From positions 1 to 64,000 of the forward strand of contig NZ_DAIEIF010000050.1 of the NCBI RefSeq assembly GCF_027352905.1: DNA of 64,000 nucleotides, read 5' to 3'. Position numbers and translations under genes: made by a program. This DNA comes from Acidocella sp. (GTDB lineage: Bacteria > Pseudomonadota > Alphaproteobacteria > Acetobacterales > Acetobacteraceae). The notes under the pieces were generated by a model. It did not search any database. It was not told where the DNA came from and worked only from the letters and a program-made list of their open reading frames with translations. Shown here piece by piece: positions 12,956 to 60,424 of this stretch; position 1 is the stretch's first letter, and each line of letters begins with the position of its first letter.

Positions 12956-13044
12956 GGCTGGGTTTTCCAACCGCCGCGTTTGCTCATAATTGGCCCCCGG
13001 TGAGAGGTAAAGCCCATCAAGGCGAAATAGCGAGAGAGAGTTTT

Positions 13045-13077
13045 TGCTGCAATGCAAAAATATCTTGCACCGCAGCA
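13045..13077. promoter_or_regulatory. 33-bp operator-like palindrome over the sRNA promoter
   Basis: Left arm TGCTGCAATGCAA (13045-13057) and right arm TTGCACCGCAGCA (13065-13077) are inverted repeats matching at 11 of 13 positions around a 7-base AT-rich centre. The right arm contains the -35 box, so a bound protein would block RNA polymerase. The TGC-rich half-sites recall sites described for PhaR/AniA-type storage regulators; the binding protein is inferred. Confidence 0.65.
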
Positions 13078-13093
13078 TAATGTCTCCTATATA
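13065..13093 (+). promoter_or_regulatory. Promoter of the MmgR-like sRNA
   Basis: -35 TTGCAC (13065-13070), 17-base spacer, -10 TATATA (13088-13093). Transcription should begin at about 13098-13101. Spacing and hexamers fit a housekeeping sigma-70 promoter. Confidence 0.7.
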
Positions 13094-13098
13094 GGTTG

Positions 13099-13174
13099 GG
13101 CAGGGTGAGTTTTCTCCCCTGTTTCTTGGACGTTTCCTCCCTAAACTTGGCGGCGCTTCGGCGCCGCCTTTTTT
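13099..13174 (+). ncRNA. mmgR: MmgR/alpha-r8-type trans-acting sRNA (Rfam 'suhB' family)
   Basis: A 76-nucleotide RNA predicted between a good promoter and a perfect terminator. Hairpin 1 is CAGGG(T)GAG-TTTT-CTCCCCTG (13101-13121). A single-stranded segment with TTTCCTCCCT (13133-13142) follows, then the GGCGGCGC-TTCG-GCGCCGCC terminator and T6. From memory, this order and the invariant UUUCCUCCCU core define the alphaproteobacterial alpha-r8 family, whose Sinorhizobium member MmgR limits polyhydroxybutyrate granules. The CCUCCC core would pair with ribosome binding sites of target mRNAs. It is convergent with the amidohydrolase gene and touches its stop codon. Confidence 0.85.
13149..13174 (+). 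terminator. Rho-independent terminator of the sRNA
   Basis: Perfect 8-bp stem GGCGGCGC/GCGCCGCC with a TTCG tetraloop and six T residues. It forms the 3' end of the sRNA. Confidence 0.95.
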
Positions 13175-14048
13175 ATTCGGCGGCGGCGCTGAAGCCGAAA
13201 TCCATCGCTCCGCCCAGGCGATTGGCGGCAATCATCCGCTCCATAAACCGAGTGAGCGTGGCGCGAAGGGTATCGAAACCAGGCCTATCGGTGAAATTTT
13301 GTTCATCCATGTAGAGACCGCGGGAAATTTCGATCTGGATCACCTCGACCTTCTCGCGTGGCCGGCCGTAATGGCGGGTGATGAACCCGCCAGCGTATGG
13401 GTCATTCCGGCGCACGGTAAACCCGAGTTCCTCAAAAAACAGCTGCGTCCGGCGCGACCACTCGGGGCGGCAGGCCGTGCCATGCCCATCTCCCAGCACA
13501 ATGTCGCAACGCGGCCCGAGCCGGGCGCGCGGCGTGGGCATGGAATGGCAATCCAGCACCAGGCAATGACCGAACAGATCGAGACTTTCCTCGATCAATC
13601 CGGCCAGCGTCTCATGAAACGGGCGCCAGCAATTTTCGATACGCTCCTTGGCTTCGGCAAAAGCCAGCTTGCGGGCGTAAATCGCCTCCCCGTTGCCCAC
13701 CACCCGCGCCAAGGTGCCGAGCCCAGCCGCCACGCGCGGGCTGGCCGTATTGACATGGGGAGGCAGGGCGTCGGCGAACATGGCGGGGTCGAGTTCCCAG
13801 GGTTCCCGGTTCACATCGCACCAGGCGCGAGGAAACTCGGCGGCGAGGAGCGGCAGGCCCAATTCCGGCCCATCGGCAAAGAGCCGGTCGATAAAACTAT
13901 CCTCCGAACCGCGAATCGCCCGCTCATCCAACCGCGAGGATTCGAGAAACGCCTTCGGATAGCGCCGGCCGGAATGGGGCGAGGTCAGAACGATTCCGGT
14001 CGACCACCGCGCCGGGCGGTGAAGGGTGATAGGCGGGGGCTGGCTCAT
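13173..14048 (-). CDS. N-formylglutamate amidohydrolase family protein
   Basis: 291 residues from ATG 14048; the track begins at an upstream TTG (14063) with no support. It belongs to the N-formylglutamate deformylase family (last step of a histidine-degradation route) and hydrolyses N-formyl- or N-acyl-amino acids. Zinc-site motifs are seen in 'TSPHSGRRYP' near the N-terminus and 'CLVLDCHSMP' in the middle, with 'VIQIEISRGLYM' near the C-terminus. No other hut genes lie nearby, so the exact substrate is open. Its stop codon sits in the T-tract of the convergent sRNA terminator. Confidence 0.85.
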   Translation of the reverse strand: MSQPPPITLHRPARWSTGIVLTSPHSGRRYPKAFLESSRLDERAIRGSEDSFIDRLFADGPELGLPLLAAEFPRAWCDVNREPWELDPAMFADALPPHVNTASPRVAAGLGTLARVVGNGEAIYARKLAFAEAKERIENCWRPFHETLAGLIEESLDLFGHCLVLDCHSMPTPRARLGPRCDIVLGDGHGTACRPEWSRRTQLFFEELGFTVRRNDPYAGGFITRHYGRPREKVEVIQIEISRGLYMDEQNFTDRPGFDTLRATLTRFMERMIAANRLGGAMDFGFSAAAE

Positions 14049-14105
14049 GGCGGCGTCATTCAATCAGCATGATTGCCGCCGGGCAAGGGAAACCAAATTT
14101 CCCTT

Positions 14106-15576
14106 TCAACTCAAAGCCGGCCGCAGGAAAAACGCCCGGCGCAATTGCCCCGCCATGCTCCCCACCCGCCGGGGCGCCAGGGCGATGACGATGACGGTGA
14201 ACATGCCCCCCGCGCTTCCCGCCAGGGCGGCGAGGGCGAATGCCGGGCTGAGAGAAGGCATTGCAGGTTCGAGCGCCCAGGCCGCCAGCCGCGCCCCCGC
14301 CAGACCCGCGCAGGGCACGCCAAGACGGCGGAATAAGGGCCAAGCCTCGCCACCCGCAGCCTGGCGCAGCGCCAGCAAAAGCAACCCCGCCGCCGCCACG
14401 CCCCGCCCCGCTAATCCCCAGGCCAGCGCTTCGAGGCCGAACGGCGCGGCCAGCCAGCACACGGCCAGGATGGTCAGCGCATTCCAGCCGGCGTAACGCA
14501 GCAGCCGCCTCGTCTCGCCCAGACTCGCCAAAAGCGGGTTGATGAGGCCGTAAAGCGCCAGAAACGGCGCGGTGAGGCTGAGTAGGGCGAAAACCGGCGC
14601 CGCCGCCATCCATTTCGCCCCGAACAAGAGGTGAACGAGCGGGCCCGGCGGCTGCTCCGCTCACCGCGCTGGTGAAAAATATCAGCATGGCGATCAGGTC
14701 GAGCATACGCCGCAGCACCTCGCGGCGACGCTGCTCATCCGCCCGCACCGCCGCCAGCACCGGCAGCAACAGCTTGCGCGCGGGGAGAAAGGAGAGTTCC
14801 TGCAACACTTCCAGCAGGCGCTGGGCGACACGGAACTGGGCGAGCGCCACCACCTCCAGCCGCAGCCCGGCCAGCATCACATAGCCCGTGAGGGCCAGGT
14901 AATCTACAAAAGCGGCTTGCATCATCGGCAAAGAGAAGCGGAACCCCGCCGCCAGCGCGGCCAGGCGGGGCGGAGGCGGGGGCATCCAGCGGGCAGCGCG
15001 GCAGGCGCAGAACGCGTAAAACGCCACCCCAGCCATGCGCTGGGTCGCCAGCGCCGCCAGGCCATGTCCGCCCAGCGCCAACGGCAAGGCGCAAGCCCCG
15101 CCCGCCGCGGTGCTGCCCAGGGAGATCAGCCCGATCGCCTTGAAGCGGAATTGCGAGGCCAGCCGCGCCGAGGGCACGATGAGAAAACAGGTCATCACCA
15201 CGTTGAGCGCCATCAACCGCAGCAAGGGGCTGAGCGCGGGCTGGCCGTAGAGATGGGCGATCCAGGGCGCCGCCGCGCTCAGCGCCAGCATGGCAGGCAA
15301 CGCCGTCAGCAATTGGCTCCAGAACGCCCCCGCCTCGATCTCGGCATTACCGGGGCTGGCCTGCACCTGCGCCCCCGCCCCGCTATTGGCGGCGATCCGC
15401 ACCAGCTCGGAAACCGACCCGGCGATGGCGATGATGCCGACATCAGGCGCCGGCACCACGCGCAGCAGCACGGCAAAAATGGCGAAGCCCACCGCCCGTT
15501 CGGCCAGGATGGTTGCGAAATTCCAGGCGGCGCCCCGCGCCGCGCCGCGCGCCAAGCTCATGCGCCATACAAGCAT
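14106..15576 (-). pseudogene. Oligosaccharide flippase (Wzx/MOP type), split by a frameshift
   Basis: The N-terminal two thirds ('MSLARGAARGAAWNFATILAERAVGF...MLIFFTSAVSG') and the C-terminal third ('FGAKWMAAAPVFALLSL...') are one flippase read in two frames. The break lies near 14637-14647. Removing one base from the coding-strand run GGGCCCGCTCGTTCAC gives a continuous 'GPLVHLLFGAKW', the usual loop-helix of this family. After the break the first frame becomes Arg/Gly-rich and lacks hydrophobic helices. Either the gene is inactivated, or there is a sequencing error in a GC-rich run. The start could be 15576 or 15561. It lies downstream of the ArsB-like gene on the same strand. Confidence 0.75.
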
Positions 15577-15590
15577 AGATTGTACCCGGC

Positions 15591-16811
15591 TTAAAGACTC
15601 AACCATAGCCCCGCGAGCGCCAGAAGCAGAGCAGGCGGCATCATCACCGCGCCCAGGGCTAAAAACCGCCAACCGCTCATCCCCACCCCCGCCCGGCGCA
15701 GCGCGGTGAGCCAGAGAATCGTCGCCAGCGAGCCGGTGATGGAGAGGTTGGGACCAAGATCCACCCCGATCAGCGCCGCCGCCTTCTGCCCCGTCCCGGC
15801 ATGCGCCAGCATATGCGCCGCCAAGAGGCCGACGGGGAGGTTATTGGCGAGATTGCTGAGCAGCGCCAGCCCGCCACCCAGGACCAGAGGGCCGCTCCGG
15901 GCCCAGCCGGAGAGGGCTTGGATAAGCCCGGCCCGGTCCAGCGCCCCGACCATGATGAACAACCCCGCCACCATGGCCAGCACGTTCCAGCTGACCCCGC
16001 GCATCACTGGCCAGGGCGATTGCCGCGCCAGCGCGCAGACCAGCCCGGTGCAGCCCACGCCCAGCAAAAAGGTAAGCAGGCCGAGCGGCCAACCCAGCCC
16101 GGCAGCGAGAATGAGGAGCATGGCCGCCCCGGCCAGCCCCGCCAGGGTCCAGCGCCCGCCTGGGGTCAGGCTTGGCGCCTCCGCCGGTATGTCCAGCCTT
16201 TGGTTGAGATGGCGTTTCTGCGTGAGCCAGAGCAGCGCGAAGGTCGCGGCGATGGCGAGGAGCGAGGCTAGGCCAAAAAGCCGCATCCAGCTGCCGAGGC
16301 GGGGCATCTGGCCACCGAAGAGGACCAGATTGGCGGGGTTGGAAACCGGCAGGACGAAGGAGGCGGCATTGGCGACGAACGCGCAAATCAGCAGGTAAGG
16401 CAAAGCGTTGCGCGCGCCAGCCTGGCGGGCCATGGCCGCCACCGCCGGGGTAAACACCACCGCCGTCGCGTCGTTGGAAAGAAACACGGTGATGAGGGTG
16501 GCGAGGCCGTAAACCATCCTGAACAGCCGCGCCGCATTGCCCGCCGCGCGCCGGGCCAGATGCGCGGCCGCCCAAGTGAACACGCCCTGAATCAATGCCA
16601 GTTCGGCCAGGAGCATCATCCCAGCCAGAAACAGGTAAAGATCCTCCCCCTGCCCCGCCGCGCGCCAGGCCGCGCCCGGCGGCAGCCCCCCCAGCCCCAC
16701 CAGCACCCCCGCCCCGGCCAGGCTGAACACCGCCTCCGGCAGGCGAAAGGGCCGCGCCATTATGCCAACTAAGCTGGCGAACACGATAAGAACGATAAGA
16801 GCGAGGCTCAT
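15591..16811 (-). CDS. ArsB-like ion transporter (SLC13/ArsB/NhaD superfamily)
   Basis: 406 residues with about 11-12 membrane helices. 'VFLSNDATAVVFTPAVAAM' and 'PVSNPANLVLFGG' in the first half and 'SNLANNLPVGLL' plus 'GVDLGPNLSITGSLATILWL' in the second half are the paired Asn/Pro re-entrant signatures of arsenite permeases. No ArsR, ArsC or ArsA gene is nearby, so arsenite export is not proven. Related proteins move sodium, silicon or organic anions. The start overlaps the MFS stop in an ATGA arrangement, so the two are probably co-transcribed. Confidence 0.75.
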   Translation of the reverse strand: MSLALIVLIVFASLVGIMARPFRLPEAVFSLAGAGVLVGLGGLPPGAAWRAAGQGEDLYLFLAGMMLLAELALIQGVFTWAAAHLARRAAGNAARLFRMVYGLATLITVFLSNDATAVVFTPAVAAMARQAGARNALPYLLICAFVANAASFVLPVSNPANLVLFGGQMPRLGSWMRLFGLASLLAIAATFALLWLTQKRHLNQRLDIPAEAPSLTPGGRWTLAGLAGAAMLLILAAGLGWPLGLLTFLLGVGCTGLVCALARQSPWPVMRGVSWNVLAMVAGLFIMVGALDRAGLIQALSGWARSGPLVLGGGLALLSNLANNLPVGLLAAHMLAHAGTGQKAAALIGVDLGPNLSITGSLATILWLTALRRAGVGMSGWRFLALGAVMMPPALLLALAGLWLSL

Positions 16812-17983
16812 TTCCGCCCGGCCGCGGCGAAATAGGAAAGCCCGAGCAGAGGCATCAGCGCCCCCGCCGCGCAGACCCCGCCCCAGCCGGCATGGATGAG
16901 CAGCGGTCCGGTGAAGGCGGAGCCCGCCGCGCCGCCCAGAAAGAAACTCGCCATGAACACGCCGTTCATGCGCGATCGCAGCTCTGGGGTCAGCACGTAG
17001 ATCGAGCGCTGGCCGAGAACGAGGCTGGTCTGTACCCCGCCATCGAGGATAATGCCCGCCAGCGCCAACAGCACCACCGAGTGGCGCCAGCCACCGAGCG
17101 CGGCGATGCCGAACGCCGCCAGCACCGCCATAAGAGCCCAGAAACTCGCCACCCTGGTATGGCCACGATCCGCGAGATGCCCAGCCACGGGCGCCAGGCA
17201 GGCGCCTAACGCCCCCGCCAGCGCGAATACGGCGATGCCGCGCTGGGTGAAGCCGAAGCGATGCATGAGAAAGAGCGGCGCCCCCGTCCAGAACAGCGAG
17301 AAGCCGGCAAAGCAGGCGGCTTGATAGACGATCCGCTCCCGTAAGACCGGAAAGCGCAGCGGCAGGGCGAACAGGCTGGCGAGCAGCGCGCCGTAATGCT
17401 CCTTGGCCTCGGGCTCACGGCGGGGCAGCGCCCGGCTGAGCAGCAGGGCCAGCCCGGCCATCACCGCCGCGGAAAGAAAGAACACCAGCCGCCAGGAGGC
17501 ATAGGCGGTGATGACCGAGGCCACCGGGCGGGACAGCAATATGCCAAAAAGCAGGCCGCCCGTCACCGTGCCCACCACCCGGCCGCGCCGCGCTTCCGGA
17601 GTGAGATGCGCTGTCAGGGGAATCAGCATCTGCACCGCGACCGAGCTAAGGCCGATCAGCGCCGAGACCGTCAGCATCATGCCCGGAGTCCAGGCCAGCC
17701 CGGCGAGGATCAAGGCGGGAATCGTGGCGGAGACCGTCGCCACCACCAGGGCCCGATTTTCCATGAGGTCCCCCAGCGGCACCAGGAAGATCATCCCCGC
17801 CGCATAGCCAAGCTGGGTCAGGCTGACGATCAGCCCCTCCGCCCGTCCGCTCATATGCAGCTGGGGGCCGATCAGCCCGACCAGCGGCTGGGAATAATAG
17901 ATATTGGCGACGATGAGGCCGCAGGAGGCCGCCATCAGCCCGACCAGAAGGCGGGACGGCCCGCGCGAGAGAGAATTCGACAT
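16808..17983 (-). CDS. MFS transporter, drug/metabolite exporter type
   Basis: 391 residues, about 12 helices. 'LIVANIYYSQPLVGLIGPQL' in helix 1 and 'QLGYAAGMIFLVPLGDLMENRALVV' (motif A in the loop between helices 2 and 3) place it in the major facilitator superfamily, near the YnfM/NepI-like exporters. It probably pumps a small organic compound out of the cell with proton antiport. It is first in a cluster with the ArsB-like gene and is divergent from uppP across 79 bases that contain two overlapping TGCAATGC octamers. Confidence 0.8.
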   Translation of the reverse strand: MSNSLSRGPSRLLVGLMAASCGLIVANIYYSQPLVGLIGPQLHMSGRAEGLIVSLTQLGYAAGMIFLVPLGDLMENRALVVATVSATIPALILAGLAWTPGMMLTVSALIGLSSVAVQMLIPLTAHLTPEARRGRVVGTVTGGLLFGILLSRPVASVITAYASWRLVFFLSAAVMAGLALLLSRALPRREPEAKEHYGALLASLFALPLRFPVLRERIVYQAACFAGFSLFWTGAPLFLMHRFGFTQRGIAVFALAGALGACLAPVAGHLADRGHTRVASFWALMAVLAAFGIAALGGWRHSVVLLALAGIILDGGVQTSLVLGQRSIYVLTPELRSRMNGVFMASFFLGGAAGSAFTGPLLIHAGWGGVCAAGALMPLLGLSYFAAAGRK

Positions 17984-18012
17984 GCCGCTGACTTAACGGC
18001 GGCGGCAAATTC

Positions 18013-18025
18013 TGCAATGCAATGC
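18013..18025. promoter_or_regulatory. Two overlapping TGCAATGC octamers between MFS gene and uppP
   Basis: TGCAATGC at 18013-18020 and again at 18018-18025, sharing three bases. It is placed centrally in the divergent intergenic region, where one regulator could act on both genes. The same octamer occurs at the sRNA, glgE and gshB intergenic regions. Confidence 0.4.
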
Positions 18026-18062
18026 GGGGGCGATTCCGCCCCGCCGCCGGAGACGCTTCACA

Positions 18063-18899
18063 ATGGATCTCATCCACGCCGCCCTCTTCGCCATTCTTCA
18101 GGGGGCGACCGAGCTGTTCCCTGTCAGCTCCCTCGGCCACGCCGTCATCGTTCCCGCCTTGCTGCATTGGGGCATCGACCAGAGCGCGCCCGGCTTCCTG
18201 CCCTTTCTCGTCATGCTGCATGTCGGCACCGCGATCGGGCTGATCGCCTATTTTTACGTGGAGTGGATCAGCATGGCGCGCGGAGTGTTGGGGCTCGGCC
18301 ATGCCTCGGAAAACGTCTCCGCCCGGGCCCTGCTCGCCAAGCTGATCGTGGCGACGCTGCCGGCCGTCATCATCGGCGCGGTTTTGAAAAAACCCATTGC
18401 CCATCTTTTCGGCAGCCCGCTGATGGCCTGCGTCTTTCTCGTTTTCAATGCCGGGCTCCTCTGGCTGGGGGAGAGGCTGCGCGCGCGGGGCCAGCGGCGC
18501 GAAACCGGGCTTTCCTACCAAGACGCGCTGATCATCGGCTTCTTCCAATGCCTCGCCTTCCTGCCCGGCATTTCCCGTTCCGGTGCTGCCATCGTCGGCG
18601 GGCTGACACGCGGCGTCTCCCATGCCGGGGCAGCGAAATTCTCCTTCCTCATGGGCACGCCGGTCATCCTCGCCGCCGCGGTGGCGGAATTGCCCAAGCT
18701 CATCCGCCAGCATGAGCTGCACGCGCTGCTCGGCGTCTCGCTGCTGGCGGCCATTCTCTCCGGCCTGGTCGCCTATGCCAGCACGGCCTTTCTGATGCGC
18801 TATTTCAAGGACCATGATGAATGGGCGCTCAACCCTTTCGCCCTTTATTGCGCGGTGGCGGGCGTGCTCGCCTTCGCGCTGCTCGCGGCGGGGCTGTGA
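18063..18899 (+). CDS. uppP: Undecaprenyl-diphosphatase
   Basis: Integral membrane phosphatase that recycles undecaprenyl pyrophosphate to the monophosphate carrier used for peptidoglycan and surface polysaccharides. 278 residues, about eight helices. 'FAILQGATELFPVSSLGHAVIV' holds the (E/Q)GxTEFLPVSS-like active-site motif, here with 'ELFPVSS'. 'LPGISRSGAAIVGGL' is the PGxSRSGxT motif. The variant also has 'DQSAPGFLPFLVMLHVGTA'. The 3' end overlaps the SGNH hydrolase start (GTGA), so the two genes are translationally coupled. Confidence 0.93.
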   Translation: MDLIHAALFAILQGATELFPVSSLGHAVIVPALLHWGIDQSAPGFLPFLVMLHVGTAIGLIAYFYVEWISMARGVLGLGHASENVSARALLAKLIVATLPAVIIGAVLKKPIAHLFGSPLMACVFLVFNAGLLWLGERLRARGQRRETGLSYQDALIIGFFQCLAFLPGISRSGAAIVGGLTRGVSHAGAAKFSFLMGTPVILAAAVAELPKLIRQHELHALLGVSLLAAILSGLVAYASTAFLMRYFKDHDEWALNPFALYCAVAGVLAFALLAAGL

Positions 18900-33098: not shown

Positions 33099-33106
33099 GC
33101 ATTGCA
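33099..33106 (-). promoter_or_regulatory. TGCAATGC octamer upstream of the glgE operon
   Basis: TGCAATGC reads on the minus strand (GCATTGCA on plus), 39-46 bases before the glgE ATG. This is the same octamer that makes up the sRNA promoter palindrome. Its position suits an operator near the operon promoter; function is inferred. Confidence 0.4.
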
Positions 33107-33144: not shown

Positions 33145-36057
33145 ATGTGCTTCAGCATGGGCTTGATAAGCGATGACCGGGCGGATGCAGGAATTTCCAG
33201 GACAAGGCCGCGCCAAGGCAAGCCTCCCGCGAGCATGGCCCTGTTTAGCGACGGTGGGGCGGAGGAGTTCGCGGCGGCGGCGGCGATGGGCTTCTCCCAT
33301 GCCCTGTTTTCCCCTTCCGAGTCCCTGGCCGGAGCGATGGACGCGGCGCGCTCCGCGGGGATGGCGCCGGTCGTCGCGCTCGACCCCACCCAATTCGCCC
33401 TGGCCGAGCGGCTGCCGACCGAGGGGGCGGGCGGATTCTACTTCCGGCGCGCGCATGAACTGCCCGAGTTCTTTCGGGCCGGTTTTATAAGCGGGTTGAA
33501 AGAGCGCGATGCCGATATGGTGGCGATCGCCGAGATTTTTGGTGCGCCGGCGCCAAGCTTGCAGATTTTAAGCGATGCCGGATTCGATTTCGCCACCAGC
33601 TCCCTCTGCTATTGGAACTTCCGTGATGATTGGTTGAACGCCGATACCGCCCGGGTGGAGCGGCTGGGGCGGGCTTTCTGTTTCGCCACCCCACCCGGCG
33701 CGGCTCTCAATAACGAGGTGCAGATCATCCGGGCCTTGCGAGCCTCCGCCATGTTTTCCCCCGGCTGGGGGGTGAGCAAGACGCTGTTTCTCGGCAGTGC
33801 CACGCTGGAAGGTGAGATCAGCCAGCTCCTGGCCAAACGGCGCGCGGATTGCCGTTTCGCCGGATCCAAGGCCGCCAGGGTGGTCTCCCCCACCGCCGCG
33901 CCACTGGCCGTATTGTTACGCCAGGGGTTGGTTGCCGTCGCCAATGCGTCTTTGCACGAGAGCGTCAGCGCGAGAACGTCCGCCTATTTACCTGATATCG
34001 AGGCGGGGAGCCTCCGCAGCGAGGGGGGAGAGACGCTGGGTCCTCTCGACAGGATCCAATTCGGCGCCGGTGAGGCGCGGTATTATGAAATCCTGCCTCT
34101 CCCCCCTGTCAGCCGCCCTGCTCCCAAACTCAATCCCAAGGCGCCACGGATCACGGTTGACGCCATCACCCCTTCCGTCGATGCGGGGCGTTATCCGGCC
34201 CGGCGGATTCTCGGCGAGGCGGTTACGATCGAGGCCGACCTCATCTGTGATGGGCACGAGCATCTCGCCGGCGAAATTTTGTACCGCTGCCAGGATGAGC
34301 GGAGTTGGCGGGCCGCGCCAATGAGCTTGATTGAGAATGACCGCTGGCGCGGCGAGATCCCCGCGCCTCGCATGGGACGATGCGAATTCATCGTCTCCGC
34401 CTGGATTGACCGTTACCGGAATTTTACCTCGGGGTTGGAGAAAAAAATAAAAGCCGGGCAGGCCGTCTCCCTTGAGATCCAGGAAGGCATGCTGCTGGTC
34501 GAGGAGGCCATGCAAGCGAGCCCGGTGGTGCGGGAGATGTGCCAGACCTGGCGAGGGGCGACAGAGGCGGAGTTGGAGGAAAAGCTGCTCTCGCCGGCCT
34601 ACGCCAAGCTGATCAGCGCCGCGTTGCCCCGCCAGTTTCTTACGAAATCCCAACCCTACCCGCTGGATGCCGAGCCGCTCCGCGCGAGATACGCTAGTTG
34701 GTACGAGATTTTCCCGCGCAGCCAGTCCGGGGATGGCCAACGGCACGGAACCTTCAGGGATGTGGTGCGGCAGCTTCCCCGTATCGCGGCGATGGGGTTC
34801 GATGTGCTGTATTTCCCACCCATCCATCCCATCGGCCACACCAACCGCAAGGGCCGAAACAATAGCTTGCGGGCGGAGCCAGGAGATCCCGGCAGCCCTT
34901 ATGCCATCGGCAGCGAGGCGGGAGGGCACGATGCCATCCACCCGGAACTCGGCACGCTGGATGATTTTCGGGACCTGATCCGTGCCGCCAAGCAATACGA
35001 TATAGACATCGCCCTGGATTTCGCCATCCAATGCTCGCCTGACCATCCCTGGCTGCGCGAGCATCCGGAGTGGTTCGCCTGGCGTCCGGACGGCTCGTTG
35101 CGGCATGCCGAAAACCCGCCAAAGAAATATGAAGACATCGTCAACGTGGAGTTTTACGCCGAGAAGGCCCAGCCCGCGTTGTGGCATGCATTGCGCGACG
35201 TCGTACAATTTTGGGTGGATCACGGCATACGGTATTTCCGCGTGGATAATCCGCATACGAAGCCTCTGCCTTTTTGGGAATGGATGATCGGCGATATCCG
35301 CTCCCGCCATCCCGACGCGATTTTTCTGGCCGAAGCGTTCACCCGGCCCAAATTGATGTATCAGTTGGCAAAGATCGGATTCTCTCAATCCTATACCTAT
35401 TTCACTTGGCGCCATACCAAGCGCGAATTGACAGAATATCTGGAGGAATTGAATGAGCCGCCGGTCCGTGAGTTTTTCCGGCCGCATTTCTTCGTGAACA
35501 CACCAGATATCAACCCTGTTTTTTTGCAAAATTCCGGGCGGCCGGGTTTTCTCATTCGTGCCGCTCTCGCCGCCACCTTATCAGGGCTTTTTGGGATCTA
35601 TAACGGGTTCGAGCTTTGTGAGGCCACGCCTGTGCCAGGTAAGGAGGAATATCTCGATTCCGAAAAATACCAGTTGCGGGCGTGGAATTACGATACTCCC
35701 CAGAATATTGTAGGGGAGATTACCCGCCTGAACCATATCCGGCGCACCAACACAGCTTTGCAAACCCATCTTAACGTGGAATTTCTTCCCTGTGACAATG
35801 AACAGGTTCTCTATTTCAGAAAAACGGCAGCAGATGGAAACACATTGCTGGTCGCGATCAGTCTCGATCCGTTCAACCCTCAACAGGCAACGCTGGAATT
35901 GCCGCTCTGGCGGTTTGGCCTGCCTGATGATGGCGCCCTCGCCGCGATGGACCTCGTCCGTGACGTGCGGTTCGTATGGCACGGCAAATATCAGCCTGTA
36001 TACCTCAATCCCGCAGAAATACCTTACTGCATCTGGCATGTCAGCCCGCGGACCTAG
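33145..36057 (+). CDS. glgE: Alpha-1,4-glucan:maltose-1-phosphate maltosyltransferase with degenerate N-terminal domain
   Basis: GlgE adds maltose from maltose-1-phosphate to a growing alpha-1,4-glucan. 970 residues against about 650-700 for actinobacterial GlgE. The first ~300 residues look like a shortened, degenerate GH13-type domain ('AGFDFATSSLCYWNFRDDWL'), as in long alphaproteobacterial forms. The canonical region follows from about 340: 'WYEIFPRSQSG', 'LYFPPIHPIGHTNRKGRNN', nucleophile Asp in 'YFRVDNPHTKPLPFWEW', acid/base Glu in 'IFLAEAFTRPK', and 'FFVNTPDINP'. Start is uncertain: ATG 33145, 33157 or 33235. First gene of a seven-gene operon; six bases before treS. Confidence 0.93.
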   Translation: MCFSMGLISDDRADAGISRTRPRQGKPPASMALFSDGGAEEFAAAAAMGFSHALFSPSESLAGAMDAARSAGMAPVVALDPTQFALAERLPTEGAGGFYFRRAHELPEFFRAGFISGLKERDADMVAIAEIFGAPAPSLQILSDAGFDFATSSLCYWNFRDDWLNADTARVERLGRAFCFATPPGAALNNEVQIIRALRASAMFSPGWGVSKTLFLGSATLEGEISQLLAKRRADCRFAGSKAARVVSPTAAPLAVLLRQGLVAVANASLHESVSARTSAYLPDIEAGSLRSEGGETLGPLDRIQFGAGEARYYEILPLPPVSRPAPKLNPKAPRITVDAITPSVDAGRYPARRILGEAVTIEADLICDGHEHLAGEILYRCQDERSWRAAPMSLIENDRWRGEIPAPRMGRCEFIVSAWIDRYRNFTSGLEKKIKAGQAVSLEIQEGMLLVEEAMQASPVVREMCQTWRGATEAELEEKLLSPAYAKLISAALPRQFLTKSQPYPLDAEPLRARYASWYEIFPRSQSGDGQRHGTFRDVVRQLPRIAAMGFDVLYFPPIHPIGHTNRKGRNNSLRAEPGDPGSPYAIGSEAGGHDAIHPELGTLDDFRDLIRAAKQYDIDIALDFAIQCSPDHPWLREHPEWFAWRPDGSLRHAENPPKKYEDIVNVEFYAEKAQPALWHALRDVVQFWVDHGIRYFRVDNPHTKPLPFWEWMIGDIRSRHPDAIFLAEAFTRPKLMYQLAKIGFSQSYTYFTWRHTKRELTEYLEELNEPPVREFFRPHFFVNTPDINPVFLQNSGRPGFLIRAALAATLSGLFGIYNGFELCEATPVPGKEEYLDSEKYQLRAWNYDTPQNIVGEITRLNHIRRTNTALQTHLNVEFLPCDNEQVLYFRKTAADGNTLLVAISLDPFNPQQATLELPLWRFGLPDDGALAAMDLVRDVRFVWHGKYQPVYLNPAEIPYCIWHVSPRT

Positions 36058-59365: not shown

Positions 59366-59663
59366 GTCATCCTCTGCCTAGGGCTTGCGGCACGCTATCA
59401 GGAGACGGGGTGTTGCTCCAGGGCCGCGGCAATAGCGCGCGTTTGCAATGCCTTTTCGAGGCACAAGATAGGCCAGCGTCATGTCGCAAACCCCAGGATG
59501 GGGCGATGACAATAAATGAAGAGTTATCAACAATTTTTTTTGCTGCAATGCGGCGTATAATTTGCCACATAAGCTTCAGAAGGCTGCCCCATTCGAGCCT
59601 TTATTATCGATTATCGATCAACCAATGGACATATCGTCCTGCAAGACCGAAAGGTGATGAGTG
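59366..59663. other. Intergenic region with two TGCAATGC sites, gshB to small ORF
   Basis: A 298-base divergent spacer. It holds TGCAATGC at 59444-59451 and at 59544-59551; the second lies inside TTTTTGCTGCAATGC, which is identical to 15 bases at the sRNA promoter (13041-13055). A perfect TATAAT (59556-59561) follows directly on the plus strand without a good -35 box, suggesting an activated or repressed promoter for the small ORF. The second half is AT-rich. Confidence 0.5.
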
Positions 59664-59822
59664 ATGTCCGCGAATATGCTAAAAACCGAGGCTGAACTCC
59701 GCAATGCCGTCATCGACCGGTTGATCGCGGCCTCTTTGAGCGATGGCAAGCCGGCTCGCGAAGCGACGTTGGAACGTTGGCGGGCTTTGAGCCACATTAA
59801 AGCAGAAAAAACCAGCAAATAA
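59664..59822 (+). CDS. Small hypothetical protein
   Basis: A possible 52-residue protein, too short for the track: 'MSANMLKTEAELRNAVIDRL' then 'LERWRALSHIKAEKTSK'. It is hydrophilic, charged and probably helical, with no Cys and no signal peptide. 'AAAGGTGATGAG' upstream gives a plausible ribosome binding site, and a TATAAT box lies about 100 bases before it. I do not recognise the family. It could be a small regulatory or storage-granule-associated protein, but nothing in the sequence proves that. Confidence 0.4.
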   Translation: MSANMLKTEAELRNAVIDRLIAASLSDGKPAREATLERWRALSHIKAEKTSK

Positions 59823-59986: not shown

Positions 59987-60424
59987 ATGACAACCATAGA
60001 GACGCAATTTCCGTTTACGTTGAGCGACGAGGAATGGCGGCGGCGGCTGACCCCCGCGCAATATGCCGTTTTACGCGGTCACGCCACAGAACGTCCAGGA
60101 AGCTGCGCGTTGAATTACGAGAAACGCCCTGGCAGCTTCGCTTGCGCGGGCTGCGGCCAAACCCTTTTTATCTCCAATAGCAAATTCGAAAGCGGCACAG
60201 GTTGGCCGAGCTTCAATGATCCGGTCGAGGGCGCGATCGGGACCAGCATCGACCGCAGCCATGGCATGATCCGCGTGGAAGCGCATTGCAGCAATTGCGG
60301 TGGCCATCTCGGCCATATTTTTGAGGATGGTCCGCCCCCTACGGGGCTGCGTTATTGCATGAATGGCGAAGCGCTGGTGTTTCGTCCGGCGGAACAAGCA
60401 GATGCCGCTTCTAGCCTAATCTAG
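59987..60424 (+). CDS. msrB: Peptide-methionine (R)-S-oxide reductase MsrB
   Basis: Repairs methionine-R-sulfoxide in proteins. 145 residues from ATG 59987, where 'GAGGAG' is 7 bases upstream; the track start at 59930 is too early. Zinc-binding CxxC pairs 'CAGCGQTLF' and 'HCSNCGGHLGHIF', 'SKFESGTGWPSF', and the catalytic Cys in 'GLRYCMNGEALVF'. No N-terminal signal peptide, so cytoplasmic. Followed by a strong terminator shared with the next convergent gene. Confidence 0.95.
   Translation: MTTIETQFPFTLSDEEWRRRLTPAQYAVLRGHATERPGSCALNYEKRPGSFACAGCGQTLFISNSKFESGTGWPSFNDPVEGAIGTSIDRSHGMIRVEAHCSNCGGHLGHIFEDGPPPTGLRYCMNGEALVFRPAEQADAASSLI

Follow-up and report, generated by a model that had tools for sequence, protein, structure and literature searches.

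The 64,000-nucleotide stretch of Acidocella sp. DNA analyzed here (the window) contains eight copies of the octamer TGCAATGC, counting both strands. An earlier note had listed seven of them, all of which we found in place, and had recognized only one as coding, overlooking a second coding copy in msrB. The copies, with the glgE-type gene, are as follows.

13048, forward strand: TGCAATGC copy in the promoter of the small RNA mmgR
14258–14265, reverse strand: coding copy inside a called gene (14056–15561)
18013–18020 and 18018–18025, forward strand: overlapping pair in the gap between an MFS gene and uppP
33099–33106, reverse strand: copy ahead of glgE, a probable chance match and non-operator
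33145–36057, forward strand: glgE-type gene, first in an alpha-glucan operon (ORF and alpha-amylase-family matches)
59444–59451, forward strand: copy that is likewise a probable chance match and non-operator
59544, forward strand: copy before a small ORF
60283–60290, reverse strand: coding copy in msrB (called gene 59987–60424; MsrB named from the translation)

Results

The bare octamer and the PhaR operator

The number of octamers in the window is not remarkable and lies within reach of chance, i.e., eight copies were found where dinucleotide shuffles gave 4.5, and 6 of 100 shuffles reached eight. Six of the eight are intergenic, with intergenic DNA making up about 9% of the window. We scanned the whole genome (2.29 Mb, 59 contigs, GC 65.5%), separating coding from intergenic DNA with a simple home-made Markov gene caller. 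On these home-made gene calls, 10 of 46 octamers were intergenic (p 0.006). This enrichment stems from the same window in which the octamer was first noticed; outside it, only 4 of 38 copies were intergenic (p 0.43). The bare octamer, for which the earlier note had looked to genome-wide intergenic enrichment, hence has no genome-wide intergenic signal.

For S. meliloti the published operator of PhaR is YGCRNYGCR flanked by AT-rich arms (PMC12542648), and for B. diazoefficiens it is the 12-mer TGCRNYGCASMA (PMC6201568); the octamer matches the first eight letters of both. When the intergenic count was repeated with this wider motif, enrichment was found: the 12-mer has 35 genome copies, 12 of them intergenic versus 3.3 expected (p 5e-5). 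The reversed 12-mer pattern, used as a control, gave five copies with one intergenic. Genome-wide, the generic cores TGCRNYGC and YGCRNYGCR were without intergenic excess, and the Rhodobacter form CTGCNNNGCAG occurred 28 times, once in intergenic DNA.

We then scored all positions with a palindromic matrix made from 16 S. meliloti sites of promoters efficiently bound by EMSA, from which the S. meliloti mmgR site was held out. The matrix stems from Sinorhizobium, a member of another order, and may also score a similar palindrome of another regulator. The held-out site reached 21.0 bits, and proven PhaR sites range from 18 to 30 bits. The top position in the 2.29-Mb genome was 13042–13062 in the window (29.9 bits). 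Next among intergenic positions came the phasin promoter (C8:53853, 25.0 bits), C15:13465 (21.7 bits), window 13060–13080 (20.9 bits), C13:66325 (20.5 bits), window 59538–59558 (19.5 bits) and C46:118869 (19.2 bits); with coding positions included, 13060 ranked fifth and 59538 seventh. Ten intergenic matches had at least 16 bits, where permuted matrices averaged 2.2 and never gave more than 7. Only 1 of 36 coding octamer copies reached at least 12 bits.

By the same score the intergenic octamers of the window fell into two groups, i.e., those with PhaR-like surroundings (29.9, 19.5 and 12.3 bits) and those without (1.2 bits at 33099 and −0.5 bits at 59444). The core YGCRNYGCR is present at 13042–13062, 13060–13080, 18007–18027 and 59538–59558. 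AT-rich arms flank both mmgR sites, are partly formed at 59538 and exist on one side only at 18007.

Further PhaR-like sites lie elsewhere in the genome. A site of 18.9 bits (C14:27939–27959) has a glycosyltransferase-like gene on one side and a small divergent gene on the other, and a link to exopolysaccharide as in S. meliloti is possible. The site at C13:66325–66345 has an outer-membrane-protein-like gene nearby, and the one at C15:13465–13485 precedes a short stretch lacking annotation.

PhaR, phasin and polyhydroxybutyrate genes

The genome encodes phaR (TIGR01848, 145.6 bits, cut-off 109; DNA-binding domain PF07879, 1.3e-31); a PDB search with the protein gave no relative. The earlier note had suggested looking upstream of phasin and phaR, and predicted PhaR sites are indeed found before both, with 25.0 bits at phasin and 16.3 bits at phaR itself. 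Comparison by coordinates located exact 12-mer sites ahead of phasin, phaR and two mmgR copies in both genomes G034 and G007, and in G034 also ahead of uppP; G024 and G009 likewise have sites for phasin, phaR and mmgR. The PhaC N-terminal domain (PF07167) was not found in the genome; a class III-like PhaC gene adjoins phaR (142 bits, below the cut-off of 365), and an intracellular depolymerase gene is present. From this gene content, the bacterium likely produces polyhydroxybutyrate (PHB).

The mmgR promoter

The small RNA downstream of the genome-best site belongs to the alpha-r8 family, and its promoter region contains two predicted operators.

13042–13062, no strand assigned: predicted distal PhaR operator TTTTGCTGCAATGCAAAAATA, genome-best
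13060–13080, no strand assigned: predicted proximal PhaR operator ATATCTTGCACCGCAGCATAA, overlapping the predicted mmgR −35
13065–13070, forward strand: mmgR −35 TTGCAC predicted from sequence, with a 17-bp spacer to the −10 TATATA (13088–13093)
13109–13184, forward strand: mmgR small RNA, alpha-r8 family (Rfam RF00519, 44.3 bits, gathering 41)

The centres of the two operators are 18 bp apart, and the proximal one shares TGCACCGCAGCAT with CAATTGTGCACCGCAGCATTA, the mmgR site of S. meliloti proven by EMSA. A strong site about 56–58 bp upstream was kept in all 10 orthologous mmgR loci, two of which (L167 and L224) are possibly from the same organism. The pair, located near −57 and −39, is kept in L162, L166, L167, L173 and L177, and at least the distal one in A. 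facilis, A. aminolytica, A. aquatica and two more loci. Over all 30 mmgR-upstream stretches, in which several mmgR copies are mixed, 10 had at least 16 bits, versus 0 of 501 control chunks.

The genome contains two more members of the family, one at C46:118743–118818 (47.2 bits to RF00519) with the 19.2-bit site just upstream and one at C12:26736–26814 (37.3 bits, under gathering) with an upstream site of 11.2 bits. One regulator may therefore be common to all three siblings, as judged from these upstream sites. When the three MmgR copies were paired with 2020 start regions by sRNA–mRNA duplex energies, accessibility being left out, phasin, glgE and uppP were unremarkable, except for uppP at rank 51 with one copy.

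The palindrome upstream of uppP

The overlapping octamer pair lies within a PhaR-like palindrome between two divergent genes.

16808–17983, reverse strand: gene for an MFS transporter, transcribed divergently to uppP (from the ORF list; matched by NCBIfam MFS models)
17992–17997, forward strand: possible uppP −35 (conserved CTTAAC/CTTAGC), 17 bp before the core CAATGC at 18015–18020
18007–18027, no strand assigned: PhaR-like operator holding the overlapping octamers
18063–18899, forward strand: uppP, undecaprenyl-diphosphate phosphatase (NF001397, 361.7 bits, just under the cut-off of 363; TIGR00753)

At 12.3 bits the window site, which is degenerate, scores lowest in its set and ranks 31st among intergenic sites, and permuted matrices produced about 16 intergenic matches at 12 bits. 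Yet each of the 14 Acidocella-group relatives examined (L220–L233) has a clear palindrome in the corresponding position, with 15–24 bits, e.g., ATTTTCTGCAATGCAGCAGGT. With the threshold set at 12 bits all 14 qualify, which none of 2000 permuted matrices equalled. None of 63 distant uppP promoters reached 15 bits, and the conserved palindrome was absent from two less related loci (L234 and L235). In L225, L227 and L229–L232 no MFS homolog was detected upstream of uppP and the palindrome was still there; we hence conclude that the site follows uppP. A CTTAAC-like hexamer precedes the core by 17 bp in most aligned relatives, which suggests that the operator overlaps the uppP −10. This site is the most conserved of the new ones and had not been stressed in the earlier note.

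The small ORF and the glgE operon

Near the end of the window, a further PhaR-like operator precedes a short reading frame.

59538–59558, no strand assigned: PhaR-like operator, seventh in the genome and sixth among intergenic sites, touching TATAAT (59556–59561) from upstream
59664–59822, forward strand: 52-aa small ORF, genus-restricted in this sample

The small ORF occurred in 33 of 61 genomes searched (its own included), all within the genus, and its protein had no match in NCBIfam. At the same position, a site of at least 16 bits was found in 3 of 29 relatives, i.e., in L185, L191 and L197 only; permuted matrices gave a mean of 0.1 there, and 1 of 500 reached three. The operator seems genuine in some species and subject to turnover. 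The octamer at 59444 lies in the context TGCAATGCC, where one half-site is broken and the core YGCRNYGCR is not formed.

The earlier note had drawn the glgE operon into the same regulon, which the sequence does not bear out. Around 33099, the context GGCATTGCA has a broken YGCR half-site and lacks the core, and nowhere in the 900 bp upstream of glgE did the PhaR matrix score above 5.4 bits. In three genus loci matched from the protein start (L214–L216), the octamer was absent upstream of glgE. In two distant glgE-type loci (L218 and L219) it lies upstream of the matched segment; there the match begins inside the protein, and the stretch is partly coding. Of the 37 genus genomes, only 6 were found to have glgE with an N-terminal query, and glgE-type genes outside the own genome share 34–44% identity with it; the name GlgE comes from the earlier reader and the operon context, not from a GlgE-specific model. 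This patchy occurrence suggests gain by transfer or repeated loss. Both the 33099 and the 59444 copies are best described as chance matches to the octamer.

Discussion

We consider it highly probable that the octamer represents part of the PhaR operator, that the PhaR regulon of this bacterium includes mmgR, phasin, phaR and uppP, and that the copies at glgE and 59444 are coincidental. A carbon-storage regulator had been proposed earlier. PhaR, which the earlier note had named as the protein for ChIP-seq or DAP-seq, would be the best candidate, given the predicted sites at mmgR, phasin and phaR here and in relatives, and it is the extension to glgE that falls away. Of the four intergenic regions originally grouped together, those of mmgR, uppP and the small ORF contain PhaR-like sites and that of glgE does not. 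The expected persistence in the same promoters of relatives held fully for mmgR (10/10) and uppP (14/14) and partly for the small ORF (3/29), and the glgE octamer was not kept.

A single regulator acting on the octamer itself, and controlling glgE, gshB/small ORF, uppP and the small RNA together, was suggested by six of the eight window copies being intergenic. We regard this as very improbable because there is no such excess outside the window (4/38), the copies split cleanly into PhaR-like and other ones, and the glgE copy is not kept next to a gene that is itself patchy in the genus. Still less credible is that every copy arose by chance from an octamer common in the genome. The count alone would allow it, since 6% of the shuffles reach the eight copies found versus 4.5 expected, but nothing in 2.29 Mb matches the PhaR matrix better than position 13042, and all 14 relatives have retained the uppP site. 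Chance is therefore refuted for mmgR and uppP and stands as the explanation for 33099 and 59444.

A more serious objection, although we think it unlikely, is that mmgR is the sole real PhaR target in the window and that another regulator with a similar palindrome acts at uppP and the small ORF. Of these promoters, PhaR binding has been published for mmgR alone, in S. meliloti, and the uppP sites of L229–L232 read CGCAATGCGGCAAA, somewhat off the phasin type. However, uppP sites of relatives score up to 23.6 bits, within the range of proven sites, and no permuted matrix matches them as well.

The preferred reading, a PhaR regulon with uppP as a member, is known in kind; uppP is a new predicted envelope target. 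As in the S. meliloti PhaR (AniA) regulon (PMC12542648), we find the operator core, AT-rich arms and sites at the mmgR and phasin promoters. The proximal mmgR site here has 13 letters in common with the one of S. meliloti mmgR, and the two mmgR sites are spaced by the same 18 bp as the two phaP1 sites of S. meliloti (PMC12542648). In contrast, S. meliloti has one mmgR, for which one site is listed, where we find three copies and paired sites, and its published PhaR targets do not include uppP (PMC12542648). The B. diazoefficiens motif TGCRNYGCASMA likewise matches the sites at mmgR, phasin, phaR and uppP; that species has another phasin gene set, and uppP is not among its listed targets (PMC6201568). 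RF00519 MmgR/alpha-r8 and Caulobacter SisA–D (PMC12559287) also have several siblings per genome, a conserved CGUUUCCUCCCU and a terminator. The Caulobacter siblings, however, are without a common promoter motif (PMC12559287), whereas PhaR-like sites precede all three copies here, the third being weak.

In other alpha-proteobacteria PhaR binds operators, is titrated by PHB and represses mmgR, the latter in S. meliloti (PMC12542648). By analogy, the PhaR of this bacterium would bind the predicted sites. When PHB is lacking, PhaR would sit on the paired operators over the mmgR promoter, and also over the phasin promoter, its own promoter and the uppP-region palindrome, and repress them; uppP would thus presumably be repressed rather than activated. 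As PHB granules form, they would attract PhaR, the promoters would open, and MmgR would then tune phasin and other mRNAs. Through the uppP site, storage would be tied to the recycling of undecaprenyl phosphate, the carrier that serves both cell wall and exopolysaccharide, which may be the physiological purpose of the link.

We found no paper connecting PhaR with undecaprenyl metabolism, PMC12542648 included, nor an earlier description of a storage-to-envelope switch. We would give even chances to such a switch in Acidocella and close relatives, where PhaR would directly control uppP, PHB storage would set the undecaprenyl-phosphate supply for wall and exopolysaccharide, and the three PhaR-controlled mmgR siblings would complete the system. 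With the glucan/trehalose operon lacking a PhaR-like site, a direct PHB–glucan balance via the octamer becomes a low priority. As predicted from sequence, the PhaR–mmgR control loop would extend from rhizobia to acidophilic Acetobacteraceae, and the uppP site would connect carbon storage with UppP, the lipid-carrier enzyme, in a way that is conserved and can be tested.
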